The notes below the pieces were generated by a model. That model made no database searches. It saw nothing but the letters and a program-made list of their open reading frames with translations, and was not told the origin of the DNA. A DNA stretch of 64,000 bases from Rhodohalobacter sulfatireducens (GTDB taxonomy: Bacteria; Bacteroidota; Rhodothermia; Balneolales; Balneolaceae): positions 62,001 through 126,000 of the forward strand of contig NZ_JAKLWS010000008.1 of NCBI RefSeq assembly GCF_022012475.1, read 5' to 3'. Below, in pieces: positions 34,087-39,635 of the stretch (its first letter is position 1; every line of letters begins with the position of its first letter). A program made the translations under genes and the position numbers.

Positions 34087-34692
34087 ATGGCCGACGAATC
34101 AACGAAAAAACAAAACAGATGGAGACGCTCCCTGATTGAGTGGGGAGTACTCATATCTATAGTCCTTTTTCTTTACCTGACCGGTTTGCATACTCAGGTT
34201 ATTGGAACTCTTCAAAGAGGTCTTTTGGCAACGGGACTCATCAAACCGGATATTCCTGAGCAGATTGACGGCGCTGCATCAGCGAATCTCGATTTTTATT
34301 TCAAAGATGAGGAAGGCACGGTGCGCTCACTTAAAAATTTTGAGGGCGACGTAATTTTTATGAATATCTGGGCTACTTGGTGTCCGCCGTGTATCGCAGA
34401 GATGCCTTCGATAAATTCTCTTTATGAAGATTTAAAATATGAAGATGGCATTTCATTCGTCATGGTATCGGTGGACGAAGATTTTTCTGAAGCTCAAAAT
34501 TTTATGAAAAGCCGCGGTTTTGACCTGCCGATCTATCACTATCGAACCAAAGTTCCCGGAACTTACCAGAGTAGAGAAATTCCAACCACTTATGTGATAT
34601 CCCCGGATTCAAAAATTGTTTTAGAAAAACGAGGATATGCAAAATACAATACAGATGAGTTCAAAGGGTTTTTGATAGATTTGGCAAGATAA
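34087..34692 (+). CDS. Membrane-anchored TlpA/ResA-like thioredoxin
   Basis: 201 residues. A cytoplasmic start (MADESTKKQNRWRRS), one membrane anchor (about 17-36), then a periplasmic thioredoxin fold with the catalytic WATWCPPCIAEMPS (C99, C102), and cis-proline loop REIPTTYVISPDSKI. TlpA/ResA proteins reduce disulfides, often in cytochrome c maturation; this window holds one cytochrome-type protein (51126-53312) but no maturation genes. Follows the Mrp gene by 20 bases. Confidence 0.9.
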   Translation: MADESTKKQNRWRRSLIEWGVLISIVLFLYLTGLHTQVIGTLQRGLLATGLIKPDIPEQIDGAASANLDFYFKDEEGTVRSLKNFEGDVIFMNIWATWCPPCIAEMPSINSLYEDLKYEDGISFVMVSVDEDFSEAQNFMKSRGFDLPIYHYRTKVPGTYQSREIPTTYVISPDSKIVLEKRGYAKYNTDEFKGFLIDLAR

Positions 34693-34934
34693 AAAGGAAA
34701 TCATCCGATGAATTCGGAGCCAAAAAAGAAGAGCACAAATAAAAAAAGAACCGGATCACATCTTTATAACTTTTCGGTTTGAAAGAGTTACGAAAGCGAA
34801 GCCGCGGCAAATTTTCCGGCTTCAATGCCAATCCCGCCGTAGCGTTCTTAACATCTGTGCTCAATTGTAATTAGCAGAATTCCGCAGCATTTGTCAAGTC
34901 CCCGCAAGCATTATTTTCCCACAACTTTTCCACC
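34693..34934. other. Gap with a coding-like relic between convergent genes
   Basis: After the thioredoxin gene comes an A-rich stretch (about 34693-34760). On the minus strand 34788-34847 reads ERYGGIGIEAGKFAAASLS and stop with an in-frame stop just before it: it looks like the end of a larger protein but has no body, so a decayed gene or a repeat is likely. No terminator with a T-tract was found. Confidence 0.3.
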
Positions 34935-34963
34935 AAGTTATCCACAAAAAGTGTGGATAACTT
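34914..34963. promoter_or_regulatory. DnaA-box cluster (inverted pair of TTATCCACA)
   Basis: Two perfect consensus DnaA boxes face each other: AAGTTATCCACA (34935-34946), AAAAG, TGTGGATAACTT (34952-34963), giving 12-base perfect arms. A near box TTTTCCACC lies at 34926-34934 and TTTTCCCACA at 34914-34923. The cluster is nine bases beyond the stop of the minus-strand protease gene, in a gap between convergent genes, which would also allow a terminator role although no T-tract follows. It may be an origin or a DnaA titration site; dnaA itself is not in the window. Confidence 0.55.
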
Positions 34964-34972
34964 CCGGATATC

Positions 34973-36658
34973 TTATCTCACGAACATCAGTTTTCCAGAT
35001 TTAGCTGCTCCATTTACAACAATTCGATAGATATAAATTCCGCTGGAGAGTCCGCTCATATCAACGGTTTCTGCGTATCTTCTGGCATCAAGATCTGCAT
35101 CAACAATTGGCCGCAGGTATTGGCCCGAAACTGTAAATAGATCTAATTTAACGCGTGATCTTTCAGAGATGGCGAATTCAATAACCGGATTCTCCGTATT
35201 GTATGAGTTGTTCACTACAAATGGATTTGGATAACTTTGATCAAGCTCAACCAGTTGATCGGTACCTAAGGACTCCCCTTCTAAAGAAATCATATAGGGG
35301 GAAGGAAGGTTGCTGGCATCGTGGTTTATAGACAATACAGCCTGGTGCCTTTCATTTGTAGTCGGATCATATTCTACTGTTACTTCTTGAGAGCCTCCCG
35401 GTGCGATGGAAAAGGAAGAATTACCCGAAATCGAAAACTGATCGCTATTTACCGATAGAGAACCGGTTAATGGAGCTTCGGCGTCATCCCGGTTGCTAAT
35501 AACAAGTGTTGTTTCTGCCGTATCACCGGAGTTCAATACTCCAAAATTTAAAGATGTTTGATTTGTAACGAGAATACCGGATGGTATTAAACCGATACAT
35601 CCTTCGCCAAGGGGCCATCCCATATCACTCAATACTCCGCAAAACAGCGGACCGGGAGTATGAACTGCAAAAGTTCGGTCAATAAAAGGGAGCATTAGAG
35701 CATTTATGGATCGACGAAATGCAGTTTGGTCAAAATGAGAATAACTGGATCCCTCATCGAATGGATCCGGAGAATATAGTTTTGCCCGGTTTACTCTTTG
35801 CCCCATTAAAGTTCTGTTGGCATCCTGGCCGTCAAAAAAGATTCCTTCCTGTTCACCGACAAGCGCGCTGTACAATTTCGATGAAGGATTTGGATAGGTC
35901 GATTCATCGATCAATAAATTATAGTCACCATCCACTACAAATCTATCATAGATAAGAGGGTTCAATTCATTGTTTCCAACTCCCCATTCCGCTATATCTG
36001 TCTCATTATCACCACTCATGCTTCCCAAAAAACCAAGCCCGTGCCCTATTTCATGCAAAACCACCGTAACAAAATCCGACCTGTTTTCGGGCACTTGTGC
36101 ATCTGTTCCAAAATACCAATCACTGAAATTGCATTGAACATTCATGTCGATGTCATACTCAACATTATCCAATTGATCGCGAATGGGCTGTCCTGTTAAA
36201 GCACTGAGCTGAGCCATTGAATACCAAGTGTCTGGCTCACCGGCGCCGGAAATCTGCACAATCTGAGACGGCTTGGCACTCCCAAGTGTATTCCCCTCCA
36301 GTTCAACCCAATTTGCATTTACCTTGATAGGAACTTCTGAAGAGATGTGCTCCGACCAGATCGACAAAGCGAATTCAAAAGCTGTGATAGCTTCTTCAGG
36401 CCACACATCTCCATCGCAGGAGCTAAAATAGTCTACCTGGAATGTTGATTGAGCTTTATTTTTAACGCGATTTAAAACTTCCTCGCTCGATTGAATAAAA
36501 AAATTAGCATTGACATTCGTAGGTGGAAGCTTGCAAACATGTTTAGTAGAGCGGGAATCAATAATCTCAAAATTGTTGGAGGGTAGCCCCTGTCCATTTA
36601 ACAGGGAAATCGAGACAATCGGACAAAGTAGTACAAGAAAGACGAGTTTTCTGAGCAT
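34973..36658 (-). CDS. Secreted HEXXH metalloprotease-like protein with type IX sorting tail
   Basis: 561 residues from the ATG at 36658 (MLRKLVFLVLLCPIVSISLL signal peptide; a TTG at 36700 would add 14 useless residues). The catalytic-type domain (about 60-350) has VVLHEIGHGLGFLGSMSGD with H202/E203/H206; a third His of metzincins at the expected place is Gly, so the third ligand is unclear. Next an ASPM/Ig-like domain (about 355-460; LNFGVLNSGDTAETTLVISN), and a C-terminal sorting tail (YPNPF, VKLDLFTVSGQYL, SSGIYIYRI, GKLMFVR). Paralogous to 37413-39635. Probably exported by Sec, then the type IX system. Substrate unknown. Confidence 0.8.
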   Translation of the reverse strand: MLRKLVFLVLLCPIVSISLLNGQGLPSNNFEIIDSRSTKHVCKLPPTNVNANFFIQSSEEVLNRVKNKAQSTFQVDYFSSCDGDVWPEEAITAFEFALSIWSEHISSEVPIKVNANWVELEGNTLGSAKPSQIVQISGAGEPDTWYSMAQLSALTGQPIRDQLDNVEYDIDMNVQCNFSDWYFGTDAQVPENRSDFVTVVLHEIGHGLGFLGSMSGDNETDIAEWGVGNNELNPLIYDRFVVDGDYNLLIDESTYPNPSSKLYSALVGEQEGIFFDGQDANRTLMGQRVNRAKLYSPDPFDEGSSYSHFDQTAFRRSINALMLPFIDRTFAVHTPGPLFCGVLSDMGWPLGEGCIGLIPSGILVTNQTSLNFGVLNSGDTAETTLVISNRDDAEAPLTGSLSVNSDQFSISGNSSFSIAPGGSQEVTVEYDPTTNERHQAVLSINHDASNLPSPYMISLEGESLGTDQLVELDQSYPNPFVVNNSYNTENPVIEFAISERSRVKLDLFTVSGQYLRPIVDADLDARRYAETVDMSGLSSGIYIYRIVVNGAAKSGKLMFVR

Positions 36659-36911
36659 CTGTTTGTGATTCAAAACTGCAAAGGGTTTGTCCAAGATCAA
36701 TATTTGTTTAAAAATAATGCTGAATGTTCGTAATTAATCGGCAATCCTTCAATCCCTAAATCTTTGTGAACGGTGAATGGTACGGTTTTTCATGGTAAAC
36801 TTTTAGATATTTAGGAAGGTGTATTTGGCTTTTTTAAACGCTCGTGAGCTGATTTCAGTTTACAAACTGGAAAGAATGTAAAAAGCAAAATCTTCATATA
36901 AAGGTTTAAAA

Positions 36912-37409
36912 ATGAATATCAAAGAGAAGAGATCTGCATTTACAAAGGTGATTGGCCTAATTTTATGGATTGGAATCTGTTACCTCGTTGCCTGGACCGG
37001 CACTTTAGTTTCGCCCGGAATTGCCTCAGCTGAATGGTATAATGCGTTGAACAAACCATCCTGGAATCCACCCAGCTGGCTGTTCGGCCCGGTCTGGACA
37101 ACACTCTACACGCTCATGGGAATCGCGGCTTGGTTGGTTTGGAAACGGTTTGGCTTTCGGCATGCAAAAGCTGCATTGGTTGCGTTCCTTGTTCAACTGT
37201 TATTGAATGGACTCTGGTCTCAACTCTTTTTTGGGCTGAAGGCGCCCGGCTGGGCTTTCCTGGAAATATTTTTCCTCTTAACAGCAATCTCTGTTACAAT
37301 CTATCTTTTCTCAATGAAGGATAAAATAGCAGCCTGGTTGATGAGTCCATACCTGCTATGGGTAGGTTTCGCCACAGTTTTGAACGGTACAATCTGGTGG
37401 ATAAATTGA
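36912..37409 (+). CDS. tspO: TspO/MBR family membrane protein
   Basis: 165 residues, five membrane helices. Family marks: WYNALNKPSWNPPSWLFGPV (about residues 42-61) with WTTLYTLMGIAAWLVWKR, LLLNGLWSQLFFGLKAPGWA and a closing WVGFATVLNGTIWW. TspO binds porphyrins and sterol-like ligands and takes part in stress and tetrapyrrole regulation; its direct function is debated. It lies on the plus strand between two paralogous minus-strand secreted proteins. The preceding 211-base gap shows no special structure. Confidence 0.93.
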   Translation: MNIKEKRSAFTKVIGLILWIGICYLVAWTGTLVSPGIASAEWYNALNKPSWNPPSWLFGPVWTTLYTLMGIAAWLVWKRFGFRHAKAALVAFLVQLLLNGLWSQLFFGLKAPGWAFLEIFFLLTAISVTIYLFSMKDKIAAWLMSPYLLWVGFATVLNGTIWWIN

Positions 37410-37412
37410 ATC

Positions 37413-39635
37413 TTATTTTATGATCGCCATCTTCTGCACTTCCATAAAATCGCCGGCCACAAAACGAATAAAATAGGTGCCTGAGGCATAGGCATTCGCC
37501 TGTATCCTTTCAAAATAGACACCTGCAGGTCGTTCTCCATCCACTATAGTTGCGACTCTTCTTCCTACAGAATCGAAAAGATCTAAACGCACGTCACTGG
37601 ATTGCGATAACTCAAAACGAACAGTCGTAGAGGCATTAAAGGGATTGGGGTAGTTGGGTAGAATAGCCGTTTCCTGTACAACCGTTGTAAATTGCTGGGG
37701 ATCAGTATACTCACTCTCACCCCCCACATTTGTTGCTTTAACACGCCAGTAATAGATTTTAGCGTATTCCAAGGGAGTATTAAGAGTAACCGTTTCTTCC
37801 TCGCTCGTTAGTTCTATTAAAGTTTCAGAAGTAAAATTCTCATCATCTGACACCTGGATAACATATTCAAACGCTCGCAGACTTTCTTGCCATGTAAATA
37901 CTGTACTTACCTGTACTTGCCCCTCATTATCCATTGGCGAGGATAACGTTACAGGCTCGGGTTTCTCAATAATGGTTGTGAAGGAACGCGTTTCACTCCA
38001 TTCTCCAACGCCTGCAGAATTGATACCTCGAATTCTCCAAAAGTATGTGGTGGAAAAGTCAAAGTTTTGTGTTCTGGAAAAACGCGTTTCGTCCACAGTT
38101 CTATTGAAGGTGAGAGGCGAAAAATCCTCCTTTTTAGAGATATGAATTTCGTACTCCTCGGCCCTGTTGTCAGATTGCCAGCTAAGTTGAAAACCGGGTC
38201 GCACTTGGGTAGCACCATTTTCAGGCGCAAACAGAGTAATAGCTCTTGGTGGCCTCTGTGCAGTTCTGAACCTGAATTTTGAGCTAAATTTACTATTCCC
38301 GGAAGCACTCACGGCCTGAACCCGCCAAAAATAAAGTGAACTGAATTCAAGATCTTCGTTGACTACAAATGAATTGTTTGAAATTGTTTGATCAACTAAC
38401 AGTTCATCAAATGAAAAATCCGATGCCAACTGAATCCTGTACTCAGTCGCGCCTTCAACCGGATTCCATGCAAGTGTTGGATTGGTGGAATTGTTCCCCT
38501 GACCATTGAACGGACTCGCAAGATTTGGCCGGTCTAAAAACCCTTCTTCAGGAATTAAATCGATACAGGCCTGCCCCAGGGGCCATCCCATATCCTGTAA
38601 AAGGCCGCAAAACACCGGGCCCGGACTGTGAATAGCCAAGGCCTGATCGAGCTGTGGCCGCATTAATGCATTCTCAGTATTTCCAAATGTAAACTGATCA
38701 AAGTGCGAATAGCTCGATCCCTGTGCCCAAGGTGAGGGTGAGTAAAGTGGTATGCGCATATCATCATTGGCAAATTCAGCTTCTGTTCCGCTAAAGTATA
38801 CACCTCCGTCTCTCCCAACCAAAGCATCATACAGGTCATTCGAAAATTTAGGAAAGAGATTCTCATCAATTAACTCCCGGAAACTGCCTTCAAGAGTAAA
38901 CTGATCAAAAACAATTGGGAAAGACCCACCATTCTGAGTTCGAACTCCCCAATTAGCAATTTCAGAATTTCGATCACCACTCATACTCCCGGTAAAACCA
39001 ATTCCATGGCCAATCTCATGCAGCAGAACCGTTACAGCATCCAGGGTACCCGAAGGAGGATTTGCATCTGTTTCAAGATACCAATCGGGAAATTCACAGT
39101 TCATATCCACAACGATGTCGTAATTTATATCATCGAACTCCTCTACAAGGTCTAGCTCCGTGAGAGCACTTGCCTGCGCAATCGTATAGAACGTATTTGG
39201 AAATACACCATCACCGGTTAGGGAAAAAAGAGTGGTTGGACCGGCCCTTCCCAAAATATCTTCACCCAGTGCTACCCAATTGGCTTCAATTCGAATGGGA
39301 ACTGTACTATCAAGGTGAGATTCCCATATACTTGCTGCATATTCAAAAGCTGTTTGAGCCTGCTGCGGCCAAACTTCGCCATTACAATTACTTTTATAAT
39401 CCAACTGAAACGTAGCGTTTTTGGCAGCATTCGGAATATTTTTTCTGAGTGATATTTCCGGCGCATATTTATAGTGAGCATCAATATCCGTCGGGTGAAA
39501 AATACAAATCTCGGCATGATCTTGTTCATCCAGCTTGATGTACGTATCCGGCTGTATTTGTTGACTAAATACTGAAAGGGGCAGGAAAATAAAAAACAGA
39601 AATAGTGATGGAAATCGAAATAGAGAGAACTGCAT
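37413..39635 (-). CDS. Secreted HEXXH metalloprotease-like protein with FN3 repeats and type IX sorting tail
   Basis: 740 residues. Signal peptide (FRFPSLFLFFIFLPLSVFSQ). The N-terminal domain (about 60-375) is a clear paralogue of the protein at 34973: QTAFEYAASIWESHLDSTVP, VLLHEIGHGIGFTGSMSGD (H206, E207, H210), SSYSHFDQFTFGNTENALM, CGLLQDMGWPLGQACIDLIP. Then three fibronectin-type-III-like repeats (about 385-655), each with a YFWRVQA-type end strand (YFWRVQAVS, YFWRIRGIN, YYWRVKATN), and a sorting tail (YPNPFNASTTVRFEL, SGTYFIRFVAGDF). The FN3 repeats replace the single Ig-like module of the other copy. Stop lies three bases from the tspO stop (convergent). Confidence 0.82.
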   Translation of the reverse strand: MQFSLFRFPSLFLFFIFLPLSVFSQQIQPDTYIKLDEQDHAEICIFHPTDIDAHYKYAPEISLRKNIPNAAKNATFQLDYKSNCNGEVWPQQAQTAFEYAASIWESHLDSTVPIRIEANWVALGEDILGRAGPTTLFSLTGDGVFPNTFYTIAQASALTELDLVEEFDDINYDIVVDMNCEFPDWYLETDANPPSGTLDAVTVLLHEIGHGIGFTGSMSGDRNSEIANWGVRTQNGGSFPIVFDQFTLEGSFRELIDENLFPKFSNDLYDALVGRDGGVYFSGTEAEFANDDMRIPLYSPSPWAQGSSYSHFDQFTFGNTENALMRPQLDQALAIHSPGPVFCGLLQDMGWPLGQACIDLIPEEGFLDRPNLASPFNGQGNNSTNPTLAWNPVEGATEYRIQLASDFSFDELLVDQTISNNSFVVNEDLEFSSLYFWRVQAVSASGNSKFSSKFRFRTAQRPPRAITLFAPENGATQVRPGFQLSWQSDNRAEEYEIHISKKEDFSPLTFNRTVDETRFSRTQNFDFSTTYFWRIRGINSAGVGEWSETRSFTTIIEKPEPVTLSSPMDNEGQVQVSTVFTWQESLRAFEYVIQVSDDENFTSETLIELTSEEETVTLNTPLEYAKIYYWRVKATNVGGESEYTDPQQFTTVVQETAILPNYPNPFNASTTVRFELSQSSDVRLDLFDSVGRRVATIVDGERPAGVYFERIQANAYASGTYFIRFVAGDFMEVQKMAIIK

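Follow-up and report, generated by a model that had tools for sequence, protein, structure and literature searches.

What do two perfect, inverted DnaA boxes do in the gap behind a protease gene, in a stretch of genome that lacks dnaA? The window, by which we mean the whole 64,000-nucleotide stretch of Rhodohalobacter sulfatireducens DNA analysed here, contains such a pair, which a first-pass annotation had read as a possible origin or DnaA regulatory site, with a terminator for the protease as the simpler alternative. Its description of the letters was accurate. The exact word TTATCCACA occurs at 34938-34946 (plus strand) and 34952-34960 (minus strand) within perfect 12-base arms (AAGTTATCCACA at 34935-34946 and TGTGGATAACTT at 34952-34963, 5 bases between them), two near boxes lie alongside (TTTTCCACC at 34926-34934 and TTTTCCCACA at 34914-34923), an A-rich stretch is present near 34720-34750, and dnaA is absent from the window, its place being contig C92. 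These two are the only exact 9-mers among the 27 window matches with at most one mismatch; because 18.7 such matches are expected and 9 of 100 shuffles reach 27, lone near-boxes in the window are unremarkable. Genome-wide, a count that had been proposed as a check, the exact 9-mer TTATCCACA occurs 88 times and its reversed control word 46 times. A close inverted pair (0-20 bp apart) is found at a single place in the 5.10 Mb of the genome and in 3 of 98 genomes, this one included. The same palindrome after many other genes had been named as part of a refutation of the earlier reading: the palindrome itself is unique in the genome, and it is the box array that recurs, at other copies of an RNA. 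The boxes are very probably not a replication origin. They stand directly upstream of an uncatalogued, multi-copy cloverleaf small RNA gene of the Balneolaceae, an arrangement that points to control of a small RNA by DnaA, the initiator of replication.

At E<=0.01, a DNA search with positions 34715-34970 gave matches in 41 of 98 genomes, although for some of these they were short ones only. The longer matches lay mostly in non-syntenic places and many stopped at box 1; local searching across the relatives' loci extended the element to ~210 bp. In an alignment of 35 copies, read in RNA sense, the boxes TGTGGATAACT, TGTGGAAAAGT and TGTGGGAAAAT are followed after ~17 bp by TTGAC, after another ~18 bp by TAnnTT and then by the RNA, which ends in CCGGU and U7 and is ~120-130 nt long in the family. 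In the window the element comprises the following parts:

34952-34960, minus strand: outer inverted DnaA box, TTATCCACA, centre ~-94 relative to the predicted RNA start; kept in G000 and G005 and decayed in G012
34938-34946, plus strand: DnaA box 1, exact TTATCCACA, which reads TGTGGATAA in RNA sense; centre ~-80
34926-34934, plus strand: DnaA-type box 2, TTTTCCACC, 12 bp from box 1, centre ~-68
34914-34923, plus strand: DnaA-type box 3, TTTTCCCACA, 11 bp from box 2, centre ~-57
34892-34897, minus strand: -35 element TTGACA (TTGAC in 32 of 35 copies)
34868-34873, minus strand: putative -10/-7 element TAATTA (TAnnTT in the family), not a sigma-70 TATAAT
34741-34862, minus strand: cloverleaf small RNA, ~122 nt, predicted 5' end at 34862 and 3' end in U7 (34747-34741)
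34741-34753, minus strand: predicted 3' half of a terminator, CGGUUC then U7

We take TAnnTT to be a Bacteroidota-type -7 element. The promoter at 34868-34897 was not reported by a consensus promoter scan; its -10 is weak and matches no recognised consensus. The A-rich stretch near 34720-34750 is the other-strand view of the U-run that closes the RNA gene. A similar inverted pair stands ahead of a copy in G120.

RNAalifold, applied to 34 of the 35 copies (alignment A1, plain MAFFT, with the second L201 copy left out), gave a four-way junction of 31 pairs, 24 of them with changes on both sides. The arms are a 7-bp closing stem (GAGUACA/UGUACUC or GAACACA/UGUGUUC, for instance), a stem capped by C-UACG-G, the stem AAGCUG/CAGCUU and a third arm. 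Cells at these positions were paired in 94.3% of cases, and both-side changes occurred in 170 cells, compared with 53.9 in shuffles (0/500) and at most 28 when slid; the excess of compensatory pair changes over shuffles is that of a structured non-coding RNA. Among 83 sequences fitted to the structure, in an alignment that leans towards it, 29 of 31 pairs varied on both sides. Folded by itself, the window copy adopts this cloverleaf too, with ordinary energy (z -1.35). Three relatives gave z of -0.6 to -1.5, and two others reached -3.7 and -6.3, but with best folds that differ from the cloverleaf. Folding energies are thus mostly unremarkable, and the structure rests on covariation. The covariance-model match on the window copy runs from 34871 to 34736 with 114.7 bits. 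With Rfam 15, nothing in the window reached a gathering score and nothing of note appeared in the region at E<=10; on 14 loci with copies it found only TPP beside two of them and nothing on the cloverleaf. The window element is almost certainly a structured RNA gene.

Searched across the class, covariance model R1 matched 45 of 244 genomes and model R2 matched 50 of 244, all of the latter in the family of the window's genome, f1, with 1-5 copies each, sometimes in tandem. Judging by named neighbours (Rhodohalobacter halophilus and Balneolaceae MAGs among them), f1 is the Balneolaceae. The window's own genome carries three copies, on C127 (the window copy), C54 and C50; G018 and G006 are among the genomes in which the covariance-model search found none, and many relatives have no copy at the window locus. 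The order Mrp-like gene, TlpA-like gene, RNA, protease is conserved in G005, G012 and a public MAG contig (L098), in which the triple box is intact, and the second copy of the genome has syntenic counterparts in G005 and G012. These copies at least were therefore inherited in place and are not freely mobile. Family-wide there is no consistent neighbour gene. Beyond the RNA locus, translations of 34973-36700 and 37413-39635 give paralogous proteins with HEIGHG metalloprotease motifs, and a TspO-like gene, also named from its translation, lies between them at 36912-37409.

We classed 81 of 83 model matches by their 140 upstream bases, dropping one match in L252 (on the opposite strand over another match) and one in L235 (a weak neighbour). 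Class A comprises the 40 copies that carry a TGTGNAWAA box, which in most of them lies at -74/-75 or -85 relative to the model start. Class B comprises 28 boxless copies with two YYACA words 20-24 bp apart, mostly 23; ten copies belong to neither class, and three have too little upstream sequence, one of them showing boxes. Among random 140-mers from the same loci, 81 of 4080 contain the box and 115 of 4080 the YYACA pair. Six copies found by R1, a model built without upstream sequence, had upstream sequence and lay outside its building set, and so serve as an independent test; all six have the box, four of them exact and in sense orientation. Of the earlier ideas, that of a DnaA regulatory site is the one that stands: the boxes resemble an operator placed in front of a small RNA promoter, and their spacing is fixed in those 40 of 81 copies. 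Class B copies bear no DnaA box at all, and the RNA core is therefore independent of DnaA. Three tandem copies in L235 (G034:C1:948800-950900) have neither promoter class.

The operator consists of three DnaA-type boxes, sometimes four, in rigid 12/11(/11) bp phasing, the last ~17 bp before TTGAC. Exact TGTGGATAA is present in 32 of the 35 aligned copies and the 12-bp doublet in 27. A search of 98 genomes located this doublet at 35 sites, spread over 25 of the genomes; 28 of the sites belong to RNA copies. Five of the seven others were inspected: two lie in a permease-like frame, two precede a gene for a 24-residue peptide and one is unclear, and the remaining two resemble the permease-frame ones in their letters. 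Judged from sequence, the fixed place of the boxes relative to the promoter fits a DnaA-controlled promoter.

Class B copies (L239-L254 and L268-L279, for example L274 476-719 and L244 571-827) carry their YYACA words at ~-85 and ~-62 from the model start, in place of the DnaA boxes. Their spacing, mostly 23 bp, is reminiscent of the direct-repeat sites of LytTR regulators. A TPP aptamer follows the RNA after 14-74 nt on the same strand in 22 of 28 class B copies, in 4 of 10 unclassed copies and in one cut copy. Of these 27 aptamers 12 reach the Rfam gathering score, and the core letters CUGAGA are found in all five shown. Class B thus has the appearance of a cloverleaf linked to a TPP sensor within its own putative transcript. 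Within the examined stretch, 10 of 28 class B copies have a convergent gene as their neighbour and 3 a gene in the same direction, while for 15 the next gene is not visible; often, then, no same-direction gene is seen behind a class B copy. Tandem cloverleaf-plus-TPP units occur in L247, L269 and L278. Behind one class A copy in G004 (L172 1170-1369, minus strand) lie a cobalamin riboswitch (113 bits) and a gene that its translation suggests is TonB-receptor-like.

Five genomes, that of the window among them, encode a conserved peptide of 24 residues, M[KR]xWKxLxFKxxLLVxxxIVxxTG or a near variant, with DnaA boxes no more than ~230 nt ahead of it (L007, G000:C33, start 1580, plus strand; also L016, L015, L255 and L256). 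A copper P-type ATPase gene adjoins it in two of the five. The two other close inverted pairs among the relatives, in G003 and G041, do not belong to copies of the RNA; each precedes the peptide by a copper ATPase gene. The peptide gene is a possible second target of DnaA.

Each of the readings that compete with a DnaA-controlled RNA gene has some points in its favour. An origin, main or alternative, would be in keeping with the inverted exact boxes and with the T-rich stretch that lies beside the boxes in many copies. All 30 dnaA loci examined, however, carry the exact TTATCCACA two or more times ahead of the gene, with conserved spacings, and an 11-bp doublet, TGTGGATAA-NNN-GTKGRAAA, was located 47 times, in 43 of 98 genomes; where dnaA could be placed, 25 of 29 doublets precede the DnaA_N match by 334-416 bp. 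The likely oriC is therefore upstream of dnaA on C92 and not in the window. That oriC-like region has the same exact TTATCCACA, beside TTTTCCACA, but in an 11-bp phase as against 12 bp in the RNA operator, so that the two arrays are similar and not identical, and the model searches report no copy of the cloverleaf family there. GC skew, computed for C127, the one contig of this genome so analysed, and for 220 kb of a relative's contig, is weak evidence; on C127 it takes no sharp turn where the boxes lie, and the site does not adjoin dnaA. With the dnaA-linked array elsewhere and a multi-copy element whose arrays are each tied to an RNA, we rejected the origin reading, to which we give next to no credence. 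The proposed terminator for the protease gene ending at 34973 was rejected too and is highly improbable: perfect 12-bp arms with a 5-base loop do stand directly after the stop codon, but the GC-rich hairpin with U-run of an intrinsic terminator was not found there, the palindrome having no U-run on either strand and the terminator scan reporting nothing. Most other copies, moreover, lack the inverted partner and retain the boxes.

A titration or reactivation site of the datA or DARS kind, in which the boxes would sequester DnaA and the RNA would be incidental, could explain intergenic multi-box arrays found several times per genome. We consider this unlikely: the array moves with the RNA, its distance from TTGAC and from the start of the RNA is the same across unrelated loci, and class B RNAs bear a different upstream motif at comparable distance. 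A protein other than DnaA that recognises a TGTGGAWAA-like site has a somewhat better, though still low, probability. Boxes 2 and 3 of the window deviate (TTTTCCACC and TTTTCCCACA) and the operator phase is unlike that of the oriC doublet, but box 1 is the exact word repeated upstream of dnaA at every dnaA locus examined. The element might also be a cis-acting attenuator or riboswitch, with a ligand deciding read-through by a choice between closing stem and terminator. In the window copy AACCG...CGGUU could pair, and this pairing would exclude the closing stem, whose 3' strand overlaps the possible terminator hairpin; TPP aptamers adjoin class B copies, as the cobalamin riboswitch does L172. 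We nonetheless regard it as improbable. The window copy has no same-direction gene downstream, the TlpA-like gene at 34087-34692 lying on the strand opposite to the RNA, and of 40 class A copies 27 have a convergent gene next, 11 a gene in the same direction and 2 none (approximate counts). The window copy and those 27 therefore have the setting of a trans-acting small RNA; the 11 that precede a same-direction gene may act as leaders.

These results favour a reading in which positions 34741-34963 are a stand-alone minus-strand small RNA gene with its own operator, regulated and probably activated by DnaA; as a whole we think this quite probable. The RNA and the operator are well supported, and DnaA binding, the sign of control, expression and targets are what we infer. 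DnaA is the likely regulator, judging from the boxes. It would bind along one face of the helix, at box 1 and cooperatively at boxes 2 and 3, and from ~-57, -68 and -80 (outer box ~-94) would help RNA polymerase at the promoter. Upstream sites of this kind usually activate. With box centres at such distances an activator fits better than a repressor, and we lean slightly towards activation. If DnaA is an upstream activator, RNA output would follow its level or nucleotide state. The RNA itself probably acts in trans, and might do so through loop pairing or protein binding.

DnaA-regulated promoters as such are already known, and the RNA family was previously uncatalogued. As far as the available part of a review of such promoters goes (PMC8203912), DnaA is both activator and repressor, dnaA autoregulation is among the cases, and the boxes likewise lie upstream of the promoter; the words sRNA, small RNA, non-coding and noncoding are absent from its text. 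The regulated gene here differs in being a multi-copy structured RNA. Another likeness is CcnA of Caulobacter, a non-coding RNA with a cell-cycle role and ties to CtrA, whose gene lies at the origin and has three weak DnaA boxes, according to the accessible portion of its description (PMC8959179). By that same partial description the present family is set apart, with copies at scattered loci and strong, phased boxes ahead of the promoter. Trans-acting riboswitch RNAs are called rare in the excerpted text of another source (PMC7266159), and to go by that excerpt class B alone is alike, in that its aptamer belongs to an RNA for which no cis gene is obvious; it differs in joining a cloverleaf to the TPP aptamer, and the window copy is aptamer-free. 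A word search of a Bacillus DnaA-binding paper (PMC4447404) found no small-RNA words. In the open-access literature, nothing recognisable as the cloverleaf family came up under DnaA with small or noncoding RNA, TPP with trans-acting sRNA, Balneola origin or structured RNAs in Bacteroidetes, and no paper on a Balneolaceae small RNA was found.

More tentatively, the Balneolaceae may have a DnaA regulon whose main output is RNA, made up of trans-acting class A cloverleafs together with the 24-residue membrane-like peptide. The same core, under a second control in class B, would be joined to TPP aptamers in RNAs that seem to stand alone, so that a single module would signal the state of the replication initiator as well as thiamine status to one shared target. 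DnaA is mainly known as an initiator and as a regulator of protein genes; here a conserved RNA family carries the initiator's sites, at scattered loci and with rigid spacing. If true, this would connect replication control with gene expression directly, through an RNA.
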